NCBI GenBank assembly: GCA_030530215.1
Contig: JAUMVJ010000002.1
Coordinates: 1-64,000 of the forward strand
Reading direction: 5' to 3'
Origin: Coriobacteriia bacterium
GTDB lineage: Bacteria; Actinomycetota; Coriobacteriia; Coriobacteriales; Eggerthellaceae
DNA: 64,000 bases
The notes under the pieces were generated by a model. The model was not told the origin of the DNA and did no database searches. It saw nothing but the letters and a program-made list of their open reading frames with translations. The position numbers and the translations under genes are program-made. Below are positions 47,928 through 56,847 of this stretch, piece by piece (the stretch's first letter is position 1; the number at the start of each line of letters is the position of its first letter).

Positions 47928-48062
47928 ACACGAACGAGTAATGCGTCGGACCTGTCTTTGGCCGTCGGCGGGATTTGAATGAAGCGCGCCCTGCCTGCGA
48001 TGCCGCAAGGTTCACCTCGCACCGAATCCGTTTAAAAAAGAAAAACTCTGGAGGTGATTGCT

Positions 48063-48911
48063 GTGGCTCTAGACGCCGCGGAGGTCAAAGTTCTGAAACC
48101 GGATGTCCTTGCGCCTGCTGAGATCGAGGCTAAGGCCGAGGTTTTGGCTGTTGGTAAGGCTGGCATGAATGCGCTCACCATGTTTGTTTTGGCAATAGCG
48201 GCGGGCCTGTTCATCGGCTGCGGCGCAACCTTGTTTACTTTGGTTCAGGGCGACACTGATCTTCCCTTCGCCGTCAAGCGTGTGATGGGCGGCTCTTGCT
48301 TCTCGGTTGGCCTGATGCTAGTTGTCGTTTGTGGCTCCGAGCTGTTCACAGGCAATTGCTTGATGGTATGCGGCTTGGGTAGCAAGAAAATCAGGCTTTC
48401 CGGCATGCTTCGCAACTGGGTGGTGGTTTGGATCGGGAACTTCGTCGGCTCGCTGTTTTTGGCCGTCGTCGTTTGCGGGTCGGCAATGGCGGCCATGAAC
48501 AACGGTGCCGTGGGCGACGCCATGGTTGCCACCGCGGTTTCCAAGGTAACGCCTGATGCGCTTACCTTGTTCTGCAAGGCCATCATGTGCAACTTCCTTG
48601 TGTGCCTTGCTGTGTGGATGACTTTCGGCGCGCGCACCTTGGTCGACAAGATCGTGGCCTGCGTTATGCCCATCACCGCTTTCGTCGCCTGCGGCTTCGA
48701 ACATAGCGTTGCCAACATGTTCTTCCTGTTCGAGGGCTGGCTTGCCAAGCTCATGGGCTACGGCGCCGGTGTTGCAAACGTCGGCTCGCTCGACTTAGGG
48801 CCCATTTTCTACAACCTGGGAATCGTCACCCTAGGCAATATCGTCGGCGGGTCGATCCTGGTCGGCTTGCTCTACTGGATCGCCTTCGCACGCGGCAAGA
48901 AGGACGATTAG
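48063..48911 (+). CDS. focA: Formate/nitrite transporter family channel
   Basis: The 282-residue membrane protein is of the FNT family: about six helices, with GLFIGCGATLFTLVQGD in helix 1, CGSELFTGNCLMV in helix 2b, RNWVVVWIGNFVGSL in helix 3, and GFEHSVANMFFL, whose His is the central pore residue. A TM-free N-terminus of ~40 residues precedes. GTG 48063 is chosen because GGAGG lies nine bases upstream. The formate dehydrogenase genes follow 334 bases later, which favours formate over nitrite as cargo. Confidence 0.9.
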   Translation: MALDAAEVKVLKPDVLAPAEIEAKAEVLAVGKAGMNALTMFVLAIAAGLFIGCGATLFTLVQGDTDLPFAVKRVMGGSCFSVGLMLVVVCGSELFTGNCLMVCGLGSKKIRLSGMLRNWVVVWIGNFVGSLFLAVVVCGSAMAAMNNGAVGDAMVATAVSKVTPDALTLFCKAIMCNFLVCLAVWMTFGARTLVDKIVACVMPITAFVACGFEHSVANMFFLFEGWLAKLMGYGAGVANVGSLDLGPIFYNLGIVTLGNIVGGSILVGLLYWIAFARGKKDD

Positions 48912-49245: not shown

Positions 49246-51078
49246 ATGGCTAAGCTATCTATCGCACCAAGCTCTCATGCTGATAAACAGATAACCGACT
49301 ACCTGGAGCGCTACGAAAAGCGCGTCTCTGCAACGCCCCCAGGCATGTGCCCCATCGCGGTGCAACTGAATCTGTTGGAAACGGGCGGCTCGCAGACCTG
49401 TGGAAAGTGTGTTCCCTGCCGTGACGGCATCCCTCAGCTTGCTAACATGCTGCGTCAGGTGCGCGATTGCAAGGCTGGCCCCGAGACGCTCGACAAAATC
49501 CGCAGCTTGGCTACTGTTATCCGTGATTCCTCCGACTGTGCTGTTGGCTACGAGGCCGGCAACGTGGTTCTTGAGGGCTTGGATTCTTTCGCCGACGAAT
49601 ATGCAAGCCACATTCAGGAAGGCTCTTGCCTCTCCGACGTTTCGCAGAAGCTTCCTTGCGAGGCTCTTTGCCCTGCGCACGTTGACGTTCCTGGCTATAT
49701 CGCCCTGGTTTCCGAGGGCCGCTACGCCGAGGCCGTGCAGCTCATTCGCAAGGATAACCCCTTCCCAACCATGTGCGCGCTCGTTTGCGAGCACCCTTGC
49801 GAGGTGCGTTGCCGTCGCCAGCTTATTGATGCCCCGGTGAACATTCGTGGCATCAAACGCTTCGCGGTAGACATGGCACCTGCCGATACCGTCCCTGTGC
49901 CCAAGCGTCTGCCTGACACCGGCCGCCATATCGCCGTCGTTGGCGCTGGCCCTTCGGGCTTGACCTGCGCTTACTATCTTGCGCTGATGGGTCATAAGGT
50001 AACTGTCTATGAAGGTCGCTCCAAGATGGGCGGTATGACTCGCTACGGCATTCCTGCCTACCGTTTCCCGCGCGAGCTTCTTGACCGTGATATTCGCGCA
50101 GTCCTTTCGGTCGGCAACATCGACGTTAAGATGAATACCCAGCTCGCCAAGGAAGACGAGGCGCGCATCATTGCCGAGCACGACGCCGTTTACGTGGCCG
50201 TTGGCGCGCAAATCGGCAAGACCTTGAAGCTCGACGGCGTTGAGGCCGAGGGCGTTATGTCTGCTGTTGACCTTCTGGGTAAGATCGGCGACGACCAGTA
50301 CCCCGACTTCACGGGCAAGAAGGTCGCTGTTATCGGTGGCGGCAACGTTGCCATGGACTGCTGTCGCACTTCGGTTCGCCTAGGTGCATCTGAGGTTACT
50401 TGCGTGTACCGCCGTCGCATCGAGGACATGACCGCGCTTTATTCCGAGATCGAGTCGGCCATGCAGGAAGGCGTCGAAATGATGACGCTTGCTGCCCCCG
50501 AGCGCATCGAGGTCGATGAGAACGGCCATTGCGCAGCGCTTATCGCTCAGCCCCAGTACATCAGCGCGGTTAAGCGTGGTCGTCCTGCGCCGGCTAAGGC
50601 CGACAAGCCCGAGGTGCGCATCGAGGCCGATATTGTCCTTATCGCGGTCGGCCAGGACATCATGTCTACCCATTACGGCATGCCCGTTTCCTCCCGCAAA
50701 CCCTACAAGGCTGACGAGTTCCTTAAGGCCGAGGGCTTTGAGAACGTCTTCGTTGGCGGCGACTGCCAGACCGGCCCCGCCACCGTTATCAAAGCTATCG
50801 GCGCTGGCAAGGTTGCGGCGCGCAATATCGACGAGTTCCTGGGTTACCACCACAAGCTCGATTGCGGCGTGAGCGCCCCCGCGCCTCGCGCAAACGATCG
50901 TCAGGCTTACGGTCGCGTCAACATCGCCGAGCGCCCTGCCCGTGAGCGCAAGCGCGATTTCGAGGGTGTTGAAATTGAGATGAGCCTTGAAGAGGCAATG
51001 CAGGAATCCAGGCGCTGCCTGCGTTGCGACCATTACGGTTGCGGCGTCTTGCAGGATGGCAGGCATCAGTATGTCTAA
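49246..51078 (+). CDS. NAD(P)H-linked flavoprotein subunit of formate dehydrogenase (NuoF tail + GltD-like)
   Basis: The 610-residue protein is a fusion. Residues ~1-125 match the C-terminal [4Fe-4S] domain of NuoF (Cys52, 55, 58 in TCGKCVPC and Cys98). Residues 138-205 are the Fer4_20 cysteine domain of GltD/dihydropyrimidine dehydrogenase (Cys138, 142, 177, 181, 185, 189). The remainder is a two-Rossmann flavin reductase (VVGAGPSGLTCAYY; VIGGGNVAMDCCRT; FVGGDCQTGPATV). It lacks NuoF's FMN domain. AAGGAGG precedes the ATG, and the last bases overlap the formate dehydrogenase gene. It likely links that enzyme to NAD(P). Confidence 0.85.
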   Translation: MAKLSIAPSSHADKQITDYLERYEKRVSATPPGMCPIAVQLNLLETGGSQTCGKCVPCRDGIPQLANMLRQVRDCKAGPETLDKIRSLATVIRDSSDCAVGYEAGNVVLEGLDSFADEYASHIQEGSCLSDVSQKLPCEALCPAHVDVPGYIALVSEGRYAEAVQLIRKDNPFPTMCALVCEHPCEVRCRRQLIDAPVNIRGIKRFAVDMAPADTVPVPKRLPDTGRHIAVVGAGPSGLTCAYYLALMGHKVTVYEGRSKMGGMTRYGIPAYRFPRELLDRDIRAVLSVGNIDVKMNTQLAKEDEARIIAEHDAVYVAVGAQIGKTLKLDGVEAEGVMSAVDLLGKIGDDQYPDFTGKKVAVIGGGNVAMDCCRTSVRLGASEVTCVYRRRIEDMTALYSEIESAMQEGVEMMTLAAPERIEVDENGHCAALIAQPQYISAVKRGRPAPAKADKPEVRIEADIVLIAVGQDIMSTHYGMPVSSRKPYKADEFLKAEGFENVFVGGDCQTGPATVIKAIGAGKVAARNIDEFLGYHHKLDCGVSAPAPRANDRQAYGRVNIAERPARERKRDFEGVEIEMSLEEAMQESRRCLRCDHYGCGVLQDGRHQYV

Positions 51079-53860
51079 TCTTTCCTTCTGCACGCTTTCC
51101 ATCGACGGCAAGGAGGTCAAGGCCCCTGTCGGCATGACCATCCTTGCTGCCGCTCGCATGGCCGGCGTGAAGATTCCCACGCTGTGCTACCTGGCCGGCA
51201 TAAACGAGATCGGCAGTTGTCGCATCTGCGTGGTTGAGGCCGAAGGGCGCGCCGAGCTGCTTGCGGCTTGCAACACCCCGGTCGAGGACGGCATGGTCAT
51301 CAGCACCAATTCCCAGCGCGTCATCGAGTCGCGCCGTGCGGCCTTGTCGCTCATCCTCACCGAGCACAATCTTGACAGCACGCATTACTGCTTTAGCTGC
51401 AAGAAGAATGGCGCTTGTGAGCTCCAGGCTCTTTGCCGCGAATACGGCGTCACCGAATCTTTTGGCGGGGTCAAGCAAGACGTGCAGCCTATGCTCGACG
51501 GCAATCCTTTCATCTCATACGACCCCAACCTGTGCATCCATTGCCAGCGTTGCGTTGCCGTTTGCAATAACTGCGCCGGAAACCATACGCTCGTTGCGGG
51601 CAAGAAGGGTACACGCACTTCAATCGAGGCTCCTTTCGGCGACGATTGGAAGGCAACCTCCTGCGAGTCGTGTGGTAACTGCACCCAGGCCTGCCCGACG
51701 GGCGCGCTGACAGAAAAGCGCCGCGAGGAATATCGCGAGTGGGAAGTTAAGAAGGTGCTCACCACCTGCCCGCACTGCGCAACCGGTTGCCAGTACTATC
51801 TGGTGATTAAGGACAATAAAATCGTCGACGTCGAGGCGGCCGATGGCCCCTCGAACCGTGGCCTTCTGTGCGTCAAGGGCCGCAGCGCCAGCTTCGACTT
51901 TGTTCATTCGCCCCGTCGTCTTACCTCGCCTTTGATCCGCAATAAGGAAACCGGCGAGTTTGAAAAGGCCACTTGGGACGAAGCGCTCGACCTCGTTGCC
52001 AAGAAGATGGGCGCTCTGCGTGATGAATTCGGCGGTCAGTCCTTGGCTGCTTTCGCCTGCGCTCGCTCCGCCAACGAAGACATTTACATGCTCCAGAAGA
52101 TGGCGCGCACGGCCTTCAAGACCAACAACGTCGACAACTGCGCTCGTGTGTGCCATGGCCCCTCTGTTGCAGGCTTGGCGCGTACGCTCGGCTCGGGTGC
52201 GATGACCAACCCCATCGTTGATATTGCCGAAAACGCCAAGGTCATCATGCTTGTCGGCTCCAACCCTGAAGAGGCCCACCCGGTGTTTGGCATGCATATC
52301 CGCAAGGCCGTTGAGCGCGGGACCAAGCTCATCGTGGTTGACCCGCGCGATATCGGGCTGTCCAAAATGGCCGATATCCATATCAAGCTCACCCCCGGCA
52401 CAAACGTTGCCTTCTCCAACGGTATCGCCAACGTTCTTATTAACGAGGGTCTTATCGATTGGGACTTCATCAACTCGCGAACCGAGGTCGACGTTTACCG
52501 CGAGTACGCCGACATGGTTTCCAGCTACACGCCTGAGCGCGTGGCCGAAATCTGCGGCATTTCCGCTGCCGACCTGGTGGCCGCAGCGCGCCTGTACGCA
52601 TCTGTCGATGCGGCGGCGATTGTCTACTGCCTGGGCGTTACCGAGCATTCCGGTGGCACCGAGGGCGTTATGTCCTTATCCAACCTTGCCATGCTTACCG
52701 GCAACTTCGGCAAGCCGGGATGCGGCGTTAATCCGGTTCGTGGTCAGAACAACGTTCAGGGCGCGTGCGACATGGGCGCAACTCCTGCCGAGTTCCCTGG
52801 TTACCAGAAGCTCGCCAACGAAGAGGTTATGGCACGCTACGAGAAGCATTGGGGAGTCGAGATTCCCAAGTGGCAGGGCACCTATGCCACCGAGTGCTTC
52901 CCCAAGATGATCTCGGGCGAGATCAAGGGCCTGTTTATCTTCGGCGAGGACCCAGTGCGCACCGACCCCAACACCAACCATGTTATTAAGGCTTTGGAGT
53001 CGCTTGACTTCCTGGTGGTCGACGAGCTCTTCTTAACCGAGACGGCCAAGTACGCGGACGTCATTTTGCCCGGCCGCAGCTACGCCGAAAAGGAAGGCAC
53101 CTTCTCCAATACTGAGCGCCGCGTTCAGCGCATTCGCACAGCGGTTACCATCCCTGGCGAGACCCGCCTTGATACCGATATCTTCATCGACTTGATGAAC
53201 CGCATGGGTTATCCGCAGCCGCAGCTTACCAGTGCTCAGATCATGGACGAGATCGCTGAGCTTACTCCGAGCTTCCATGGCATCAGCCATGAGCGCTTGG
53301 ACAGCCCTGAAATCGGCGGCCGCGGCCTTTGCTGGCCTTGCTTGGACAAAGATCATCCCGGTACGCCCATCATGCACGTGGGCAAGTTCAGCCGCGGACT
53401 GGGAACCTATTCGGTTGCCGAGTACATCCCCTCTACCGAGCTGCCCGACGAGGAGTATCCGCTGATCCTCACCACCGGCCGCATCCTGTACCACTACAAC
53501 GCTTCCGCCATGACCGACAAGACCGAAGGCATCAACCAGATTGCCGGCAAATCCTTCATCGAGGTCAATTCCGAGGACGCCGAGAGGCTTCACATCATCG
53601 ACGGCGGTCGCGTGAAGGTGAGCAGCCGCAGAAGCGCCATCCTTACCTGGGCTCGCGTGAGCGGCAAAACCAACCCCGGTCAAACCTGGATGCCCTTCCA
53701 TTTCCAGGACGGTAACGCCAACTGGTTGACCAAGGATGCGCTCGATCGCATTTGCCGTACCCCTGAGTACAAGGTGTGTGCCGTTGCCCTTGAGGCGGTT
53801 CCCGACGATTACGTTCTTTCCGACGAGGAGAAGCATCCCGTACACGGGCACTCCGTGTAG
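51071..53860 (+). CDS. Formate dehydrogenase catalytic subunit (Cys-type, NuoG-like N-terminus)
   Basis: The 929-residue Mo/W-bisPGD enzyme oxidises formate to CO2 or the reverse. The N-terminus carries a [2Fe-2S] domain (Cys39, 50, 53, 67), a NuoG-type cluster (HYCFSCKKNGACELQ) and two [4Fe-4S] sites (CIHCQRCVAVC, CESCGNCTQACPTG). The catalytic core follows with cluster CPHCATGC (233-240) and the active-site motif NCARVCHGPSVAGL, where Cys361 replaces the selenocysteine of E. coli FdhF. ATG 51071 overlaps the previous stop by eight bases, so translation is coupled. A strong terminator follows. Confidence 0.93.
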   Translation: MSNLSFCTLSIDGKEVKAPVGMTILAAARMAGVKIPTLCYLAGINEIGSCRICVVEAEGRAELLAACNTPVEDGMVISTNSQRVIESRRAALSLILTEHNLDSTHYCFSCKKNGACELQALCREYGVTESFGGVKQDVQPMLDGNPFISYDPNLCIHCQRCVAVCNNCAGNHTLVAGKKGTRTSIEAPFGDDWKATSCESCGNCTQACPTGALTEKRREEYREWEVKKVLTTCPHCATGCQYYLVIKDNKIVDVEAADGPSNRGLLCVKGRSASFDFVHSPRRLTSPLIRNKETGEFEKATWDEALDLVAKKMGALRDEFGGQSLAAFACARSANEDIYMLQKMARTAFKTNNVDNCARVCHGPSVAGLARTLGSGAMTNPIVDIAENAKVIMLVGSNPEEAHPVFGMHIRKAVERGTKLIVVDPRDIGLSKMADIHIKLTPGTNVAFSNGIANVLINEGLIDWDFINSRTEVDVYREYADMVSSYTPERVAEICGISAADLVAAARLYASVDAAAIVYCLGVTEHSGGTEGVMSLSNLAMLTGNFGKPGCGVNPVRGQNNVQGACDMGATPAEFPGYQKLANEEVMARYEKHWGVEIPKWQGTYATECFPKMISGEIKGLFIFGEDPVRTDPNTNHVIKALESLDFLVVDELFLTETAKYADVILPGRSYAEKEGTFSNTERRVQRIRTAVTIPGETRLDTDIFIDLMNRMGYPQPQLTSAQIMDEIAELTPSFHGISHERLDSPEIGGRGLCWPCLDKDHPGTPIMHVGKFSRGLGTYSVAEYIPSTELPDEEYPLILTTGRILYHYNASAMTDKTEGINQIAGKSFIEVNSEDAERLHIIDGGRVKVSSRRSAILTWARVSGKTNPGQTWMPFHFQDGNANWLTKDALDRICRTPEYKVCAVALEAVPDDYVLSDEEKHPVHGHSV

Positions 53861-53995: not shown

Positions 53996-54249
53996 AACCG
54001 GCAGTGCAACTGCAATGTCTTCAGGGAATTTTTACCTAAGCGTCATGCAATAAGAGGCAAAGGTTCGCTACCCTAGGGCTAATACCCAATGCCTTCGGCT
54101 GTGCGCGGGTCGCTGTGAGCTTGTGCGCGATGAAGCTGCGTATAGGGCCAGCGTGCCATGCATCGTGCAGCTTTGTTGTGCGAAGTTGTGCGTCGCCCAC
54201 CCGCTTGAAGGCACTTTGCGTGTCTACGACTTATATAAAGGAGATTCTT
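53996..54249. other. Leader region of dapL
   Basis: Between the terminator and dapL lie about 250 bases with no credible gene. I saw no clear lysine-riboswitch core. GGCTAATACCC near 54080 could be a -10 region, but the promoter is unproven. Confidence 0.4.
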
Positions 54250-55470
54250 TTGGCTAAGGTCAACGAAAACTATCAATTGCTTCCCGGAAGCTACCTGTTC
54301 TCCGAGATTGCTCGTCGCACGGCGGCCTACTCCGAGGCTCACCCTGAGGCCGACCTGATCAAGATGGGCATCGGCGACGTCACCCGCCCTCTGGCCCCCG
54401 TCGTCATCGAGGCCATGCACGGCGCGGTCGACGATCTTGCTCATGCGGAGAGCTTCTATGGCTATGGCCCTGAGCAGGGCTACGACTTCCTGCGCGATGC
54501 GATCCAGAAGGCCGACTTCGCGGCTCGCGGGGTCGACATTTCCGCTGACGAGATTTTCGTTTCCGACGGCGCCAAGTCCGACTGCGGTAACATCGGCGAC
54601 ATCCTTTCCGTCGACAACAAGATTGCCGTGTGCGACCCGGTGTATCCCGTTTACGTGGACACCAACGCCATGGCTGGCCGTGCGGGCACCTACGATGAGA
54701 AAGCTCAAGGCTGGACTAATATTTATTACATGCCCACCACGACCGAAAACGGCTTCTCGCCCGAGCTGCCCAAGGTGAAGGTCGACGTCATCTACCTGTG
54801 CAGCCCCAACAACCCCACGGGCACCGTTCTTAACGCCGAACAGCTTAAGGCTTGGGTCGATTACGCCAATGAGAACGGCTCGATCATCATGTTCGACGCC
54901 GCTTATGAGCGCTTCATCACCGAGCCAGGCGTGCCCCATTCCATCTTCGAGGTGGAGGGCGCCAAGACTTGCGCCATTGAGTTCCGCTCCTTCTCCAAGA
55001 CAGCGGGCTTCACGGGCGCACGCTGCGGTTACACCGTCGTTCCCAAGGATCTTGTCCGCGACGGCCAGAGTCTGAACGCCATGTGGAATCGCCGTCAGAC
55101 CACCAAGTTCAACGGCGCCTCTTACGTTATCCAACGCGGTGCCGCTGCGGTCTACACCGAGGAAGGCGCTGCTCAGATCGAGGAAACCCTTGACTACTAC
55201 CGCAACAATGCCAAGGTGATTAAAGAGGGCCTGGAGTCTGCGGGCTTCACCGTGTTCGGCGCGGTTAACAGCCCCTACATTTGGTGCCAGACCCCCGAGG
55301 GCATGGGCTCCTGGGAGTTCTTCGACAAGCTGCTGACCGAGGCCAACATCATCACTACCCCCGGTGCCGGCTTCGGCCCTTCGGGCGAGGGCTACATTCG
55401 CCTTACCGCATTCGGCGATGCCAATCGTACGGTTGAGGCCATGGAGCGTATCAAGAAGCTTATGGCTTAA
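54250..55470 (+). CDS. dapL: LL-diaminopimelate aminotransferase
   Basis: The 406-residue class I PLP aminotransferase converts tetrahydrodipicolinate directly to LL-diaminopimelate, using glutamate, in lysine and cell-wall synthesis. Motifs are [14 protein letters not shown] at the start, [40 protein letters not shown], and the PLP lysine in [15 protein letters not shown]. The start is TTG 54250, chosen because AAAGGAG lies six bases upstream and the product begins as family members do. It is a single gene between terminators. Confidence 0.94.
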
Positions 55471-55596: not shown

Positions 55597-55698
55597 TGTT
55601 GTTGATGGGTTTGTTGGGGCTAAGGGCGTAAACTTTTGCCCTGGTGAGCAAGTTATATAGGCAAGCCAAGGCGGGAAGCAAAAAACGAAAGGAAAGCC

Positions 55699-56847
55699 AT
55701 GGAAGCAAAGCGCGAGTGGGTTCTCGTTTTCGATTCGACGCATGCGGCCATGGCTGCTCAAAATATCTTGTCCTCCCTCGACCCTTTTGTTATCCCGACG
55801 CCTCGCACGATTACCGCAAGCTGCGGTATTTCCTTGCGCATGGACGAGGTGCGAGCGATCAAGGCCAAGAAGCTTCTTCTTGAGCATTCGGACATCTGCG
55901 AGCTTTCCAAGTGGTATGTCAAAGTGGATGTTGCCTGGGTTCCTGCCATCCCTGGTGAGCTTGAGGAAGGCGATGCCCTTCGTGGGGTAGGCGAGTGCTC
56001 GTCTGCCCCGTTGCTTTTGTGCTCGGCCGCCAAGGACGCGCGCCTTCGTTTGGGAGGCGATGAGGATCCGGCCTACCCTATTGCCACGGTGCAGGTACAC
56101 ACGGTTTCCTCCGACGGGGTAAGCGAGCTTGTGCCCATGACGGTGCAAGCCGAGCATTCCCTTGACGTCTATGTGAACGAAGAGCTCACCATGCGTGTGG
56201 TTTGCACGCCGACGCATCTGTTCGACCTGATAATCGGCAGGCTACGCACCGAGGGTCTGATCTTTAGCATCGATGAAATTGAATCAATCGACTTGCTCGC
56301 AGAAGGCAGGCGCGCCAACGTTTACCTGCGCAATCGAGAGGCTGATCTGTCGCGTGCGCATGTGAACGTAGTTCCTACTTGTTGCACAGGAAACCAACTC
56401 TTTAACAGCTACTTCGTCAACGATGACAGCATGCGGAAGCTCGAAAGCTTCGACTGGGAGCCTGAGTGGGTGTTTTCCTTGGCACGCATGCTTGCAAGCG
56501 ACACGCCACTGCATCGGCAGACCTTCGGCGCACATAGCTGTTACCTTTCGCATAAAGGTACTTTGATTTGCTGCCGCGAAGATCTTGGTCGTCATAATGC
56601 CTTGGATAAGGTGGTGGGCAAGGCCATGCGGGAAGGCGTCAAGCTGGAAGAATGCGTGTTGTATAGCTCGGGGCGCGTCCCGGTTGACATGGTGCAAAAA
56701 GTTATTCGCGCGCGAATTCCTGTTCTTGCCTCTAAGGCGGTTCCCACCGACATGACCATTCGCCTGGCCAAGGAGTTCAACCTTACCCTCATTTGCTCGG
56801 CGCGCCCCGATTCCATGAAGGTCTTAAACAGCCCGAATTTTGCATGA
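55699..56847 (+). CDS. fdhD: Se/S carrier (DUF3343)-FdhD fusion, formate dehydrogenase maturation factor
   Basis: The 382-residue protein joins two domains. Residues ~1-75 match the DUF3343/Se-S carrier family (VLVFDSTHAAMAAQNIL, IPTPRTITASCGISL with Cys42). Residues ~125-382 are FdhD, which passes sulfur to the Mo-bisPGD cofactor of formate dehydrogenase (CTPTHLFDLIIGRLRTEGLI, EDLGRHNALDKVVGKA, VLYSSGRVPVDMV). The usual FdhD CxxC loop is replaced by PTCCTGN (Cys228-Cys229). GAAAGGAAA precedes the ATG. It lies 1.8 kb behind the formate dehydrogenase genes with dapL between. The sulfur-relay role of the fusion is inferred. Confidence 0.88.
   Translation: MEAKREWVLVFDSTHAAMAAQNILSSLDPFVIPTPRTITASCGISLRMDEVRAIKAKKLLLEHSDICELSKWYVKVDVAWVPAIPGELEEGDALRGVGECSSAPLLLCSAAKDARLRLGGDEDPAYPIATVQVHTVSSDGVSELVPMTVQAEHSLDVYVNEELTMRVVCTPTHLFDLIIGRLRTEGLIFSIDEIESIDLLAEGRRANVYLRNREADLSRAHVNVVPTCCTGNQLFNSYFVNDDSMRKLESFDWEPEWVFSLARMLASDTPLHRQTFGAHSCYLSHKGTLICCREDLGRHNALDKVVGKAMREGVKLEECVLYSSGRVPVDMVQKVIRARIPVLASKAVPTDMTIRLAKEFNLTLICSARPDSMKVLNSPNFA

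Follow-up and report, generated by a model that had tools for sequence, protein, structure and literature searches.

The 64 000 nt stretch of Eggerthellaceae DNA analysed here (the window) contains a gene in which a predicted selenium/sulfur carrier domain, DUF3343, precedes the sulfurtransferase FdhD, which supplies sulfur to the metal centre of formate dehydrogenase (FDH), on one polypeptide. In E. coli, the sulfur source of FdhD is IscS. The literature leaves open how sulfur reaches FdhD proteins that lack a CxxC motif (PMC6239281). DUF3343 has been proposed to be a Se/S trafficking protein (Lin et al. 2015); throughout the family, carrier activity is a prediction (PMC5322559). The gene has the following features.

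55688..55696, + strand: likely ribosome-binding site, AAAGGAAAG, ahead of the ATG of the fusion (read directly)
55699..56847, + strand: DUF3343::FdhD fusion gene, 382 aa, stop included in the span (ORF and Pfam)
55717..55887, + strand: Se/S carrier domain PF11823/DUF3343, residues 7-63 (Pfam, 47.4 bits)
55822..55824, + strand: codon of Cys42, the conserved carrier cysteine, motif TASCGISLR (sequence and alignment)
55927..56079, + strand: variable linker, residues 77-127 (conservation and low model confidence, pLDDT <50 at 92-113)
56149..56835, + strand: FdhD domain PF02634, residues 151-379 (Pfam, 201 bits; matches 2PW9 and 4PDE)
56380..56385, + strand: codons of Cys228-Cys229 in the FdhD loop, PTCCTGN not CxxC (subfamily alignment)

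The DUF3343-FdhD fusion is real. As an earlier note on this DNA had claimed, a single 382 aa ORF holds both domains, each scoring above its curated Pfam cut-off. PF11823 (Se_S_carrier) was assigned to residues 7-63, within the first 75 residues for which that note had suggested a profile search (47.4 bits against a gathering cut-off of 25, E 1.4e-12), and PF02634 (FdhD) to residues 151-379 (201.1 bits against 27.2, E 2.9e-59). The FdhD equivalog model TIGR00129 (NCBIfam) scored 139.0, just below its cut-off of 140.9, as expected of a divergent FdhD. In the AlphaFold model, the carrier domain is confident and separate (10-residue block means of 80-96 over residues 1-90), the linker is unstructured (pLDDT <50 at residues 92-113), and the FdhD core is confident, with Foldseek matches to 2PW9 (E 6e-18) and 4PDE (E 2e-16); confidence is low in the loop of residues 224-238, which includes Cys228 and Cys229.

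Cys42 was invariant among the carriers of an 11-row DUF3343 alignment, which bears out its earlier identification as the conserved carrier cysteine (SCGIS), and it is retained with the TASCGISLRM core in all four known fusions. Cys228 and Cys229, previously named as the FdhD cysteines, do lie within a loop of the FdhD domain, where the subfamily of the FdhD half (34 members) has PTCCTGN in place of CxxC. CC-type FdhDs have already been recognized within 'group III', and Cys-less FdhDs have been reported too (PMC6239281); the missing CxxC therefore does not exclude membership of the FdhD family. Within the subfamily, Cys169 and Cys281 are each conserved in 34/34 members, Cys366 in 33/34, Cys228 in 32/34 and Cys229 in 30/34. 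The loop is Cys-free in two members (L069:3445-4911 of genome G108 and L233:786-2462 of G096), in which Cys169 and Cys281 are still invariant. Compared with the FdhD/FdsC sulfurtransferase-chaperones (E. coli 4PDE, Desulfotalea 2PW9), the fusion protein shares the full FdhD domain by sequence and fold, the proximity of the gene to FDH genes and the position of the loop cysteines in a low-confidence region of the model, but differs in its CC motif and its extra N-terminal carrier domain.

The two halves and the linker have diverged at different rates. Between the window protein and that of G002, from the same genus, identity was 88% in the carrier core, 76% in FdhD and 42% in the linker; across all pairs compared, the carrier core was 79-95% identical and the linker 27-52%. 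Values of pN/pS were low in the carrier core and FdhD, as calculated from few sequences with some synonymous sites saturated. Judged from these comparisons, purifying selection is acting on both domains and the linker is poorly conserved, a combination suggestive of two domains joined by a free leash. Maintenance of the fusion by selection is thus supported.

A survey of the architecture, as the earlier note had recommended, located the fusion in four genomes from two genera, all of them metagenome-assembled: the window genome (G000) and G002, which are congeneric, plus G121 and G122, which belong to another genus of the family. Beyond these four, no DUF3343-FdhD fusion was found in 138 genomes of the family or 396 of the phylum (PF11823), in 396 genomes of the class (protein search), among the 80 closest carrier-lineage loci of an 84,980-species collection, or in plasmid records. 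Those long DUF3343 frames of the phylum sample that were checked had other partners or were unrelated long frames, with no FdhD fusion. The genome searches centred on this phylum, and a convergent fusion involving a distant DUF3343 may occur outside it. Unfused FdhDs (47-57% identity) occur commonly in the family's other genera. Adlercreutzia encodes a YedF-adjacent DUF3343 and a CC-type FdhD as separate proteins. The carrier halves of the four fusions form one clade (support 100/97) and the FdhD halves also form one, weakly (83/86), so that a single fusion event is the likely origin of all four. A literature search, which had most subscription papers outside its reach, returned no paper naming FdhD and DUF3343 together. 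Both families and the selenium-island context were already known; the domain architecture is new.

FdhD has other fusion partners. A MobA-FdhD fusion was seen directly in L022 (G040), and many further FdhD matches from the class fall within open frames of 470-530 aa that may, by their length, encode MobA-FdhD too. Like the fusion described here, MobA-FdhD gives FdhD an N-terminal partner from its own pathway; however, MobA makes the bis-MGD cofactor, whereas the partner here is a chalcogen carrier.

The ancestry of the carrier half, which the earlier note overlooked, connects it to selenium metabolism. The fused carrier domains nest (98/98) inside a clade of stand-alone DUF3343s encoded next to YedF, apart from the DUF3343s found beside TusA, desulfurase or activase, in a tree of only 70 columns whose inner forks are weak. 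YedF was encoded within 1 kb in 75 of the 80 closest carrier-lineage loci of the 84,980-species collection, and two of the five others are near contig edges. The slot beside yedF is filled in many other genera by a stand-alone DUF3343, and two DUF3343 genes have been described near YedF and Sec lyase in Slackia heliotrinireducens (PMC5322559). The fusion resembles these YedF-adjacent proteins in its domain, its invariant Cys and, in the sister genomes, its place in the yedF slot, but unlike them it is joined to FdhD and, in the window genome, has moved out of the selenium island. At two loci (L196 and L200), a YedF-type DUF3343 is flanked not by YedF but by genes resembling a methylated-DNA repair methyltransferase and a SAM methyltransferase. 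Among 50 genomes with the carrier lineage, 49 encoded SelD and only four FdhD, and several members of the family have this lineage without any FdhD. The ancestral function of the carrier is therefore independent of FdhD, and dependence of the lineage on FdhD was rejected on these grounds.

In the three sister genomes, the fused gene is beside yedF. G002, G121 and G122 all share the series double-cubane reductase, activase::DUF3343, double-cubane reductase, DUF3343, cysteine desulfurase, YedF and DUF3343::FdhD, which places the fused gene directly after the desulfurase and yedF, in the YedF-partner slot. On the longer contigs of G002 and G122, selD and a UGA-containing fdnG lie just beyond it. 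The activase in these islands is an acyl-CoA dehydratase activase that carries DUF3343 at its C-terminus and is flanked by the double-cubane reductases (L064:13412-14566, L065:615-1703 and L066:13641-14714); it too joins DUF3343 to a partner enzyme, but both the DUF3343 lineage and the partner differ from those of the FdhD fusion. A C-terminal DUF3343 was also present in a long protein at L079:5081. A different DUF3343-like domain occurs at L215-L222, in proteins of 338-442 aa with a common C-terminal region, LRDNRPGPVGSGNLLPL, and a differing Cys motif, mostly AGELCTTAIA.

In the window genome, the fusion gene is not adjacent to yedF and lies outside the desulfurase/YedF operon, near a Cys-type FDH instead, with the following genes upstream.

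48054..48911, + strand: FocA-family formate transporter (profile search)
49246..51078, + strand: GltD-like NAD(P)-binding protein of the FDH locus (profile search)
51050..53860, + strand: formate dehydrogenase alpha, NuoG-like N-terminus, Cys-type active site RVCHGPS (TIGR01591, 801 bits)
54115..55470, + strand: LL-diaminopimelate aminotransferase, between FDH and the fusion (TIGR03542; the true start may be further 3')

The FDH genes had been placed 1.8 kb upstream of the fusion, in agreement with the FDH alpha stop at 53860; the LL-diaminopimelate aminotransferase gene occupies the interval. The selenium island of this genome, on contig C12, encodes SelB, SelA, YedE, TusA, DUF3343, a selenium-type cysteine desulfurase, YedF and SelD, which itself contains UGA, together with FdnG with an in-frame UGA (NQARVUHGPT), FdnH, FdnI and FdhE. 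No DUF3343 follows YedF in the C12 island, and no second FdhD was found in the window genome, the assembly of which is 64% complete. With a single fused FdhD found and two FDHs present, the fused protein probably serves both the Cys-type FDH and the Sec-FDH, by analogy with E. coli, in which one FdhD serves three FDHs (PMC10609526). Elsewhere, selenocysteine-type FdnG genes were present in G024 (98% complete; L128) and G001 (80%; L070), where PF02634 found no FdhD, so that FDH apparently occurs there without FdhD. In G070, a short C-terminal FdhD remnant lies beside the selenium island (L227:3569-3823/L143:8552), as if FdhD had decayed.

We propose that a YedF-partner DUF3343 was fused once to a CC-type FdhD and relays sulfur to it, an account of origin and mechanism that, taken as a whole, we regard as evenly poised between right and wrong. 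We infer each chemical step. Cys42 would most likely be charged with persulfide (or selenide-level chalcogen) by the cysteine desulfurase of the island and/or YedF, the loaded carrier would swing on the flexible linker to the FdhD dimer, and at FdhD the bis-MGD cofactor would receive the sulfur, whether or not Cys228/229 take part. The fused protein would keep its YedF-partner role in selenium metabolism besides feeding sulfur to FdhD. No second copy of the YedF-type carrier lineage was found among the DUF3343 matches of the fused genomes, which include incomplete or contaminated ones, and the fused protein is thus probably still the partner of YedF.

The relay from Cys42 to FdhD suggested in the earlier note is plausible. 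Its further idea, that the fusion replaces a separate desulfurase step, is not supported: the window genome retains a selenium-type cysteine desulfurase and YedF, so the carrier would sit between desulfurase and FdhD. Some systems can dispense with the loop cysteines of FdhD (PMC6239281), and transfer from Cys42 to Cys228/229 specifically cannot therefore be assumed. Further findings count against a relay: the carrier lineage usually occurs with SelD (49/50 genomes) and without FdhD (4/50), two members of the FdhD subfamily lack the loop cysteines, and the window gene lies outside the desulfurase/YedF operon.

A reading with no internal relay we consider possible though doubtful. The carrier would perform only its ancestral YedF/SelD-linked selenium work, and the fusion would serve to co-express or co-localize FdhD with the machinery of selenium-FDH maturation. 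The ties of the lineage to YedF (75/80 loci) and SelD rather than FdhD are as this reading predicts, as is the position of the fused gene in the yedF-partner slot of selenium islands, close to Sec-FDH genes; the window gene, however, has kept its carrier core conserved outside the selenium island and near a Cys-type FDH. That conservation also bears on a quite improbable reading, in which DUF3343 is now a mere docking or stabilizing module with a vestigial cysteine. In its favour, the FdhDs of unfused relatives stand alone without DUF3343, but Cys42 and the TASCGISLRM core persist in 4/4 fusions. A further reading has the carrier deliver selenium in place of sulfur, either to FdhD or to the selenocysteine FDH as it is being synthesized; this would suit the selenium-island context and the UGA-containing FdnG of the same genomes. 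We consider it very improbable: the FDH nearest to the window gene is of the Cys type, Sec is made from selenophosphate by SelD and SelA, both of which are present, and a selenido Mo ligand is not known to us from any FDH. Finally, a frameshift, misassembly or misread start that merged two genes can be dismissed, even though the assembly is fragmented and incomplete, because the identical architecture occurs in three further assemblies, the ATG is clean and has a ribosome-binding site, and no in-frame internal start with a ribosome-binding-like motif was found in residues 71-165.

The fusion bears on both families. DUF3343, a predicted Se/S carrier of wide occurrence, is described as uncharacterized in the papers found, and the conserved fusion suggests a physical partner both for DUF3343 and for the CxxC-less FdhD. 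A rare natural fusion in a gut-type bacterium hints at the source of the sulfur of FdhD, an idea that can be tested by cysteine mutants and linker cuts. It is conceivable, if rather unlikely, that YedF-linked DUF3343 acts as a chalcogen hub, supplying selenophosphate synthesis as well as Mo-sulfuration. The fusion would then route sulfur from the selenium-type desulfurase and YedF to the FDH cofactor, and CC-type FdhDs would generally be supplied via such carriers and not by contacting an IscS-type desulfurase directly. If this is true, one protein would handle both chalcogens required by a single FDH, which contains selenocysteine as well as Mo=S.
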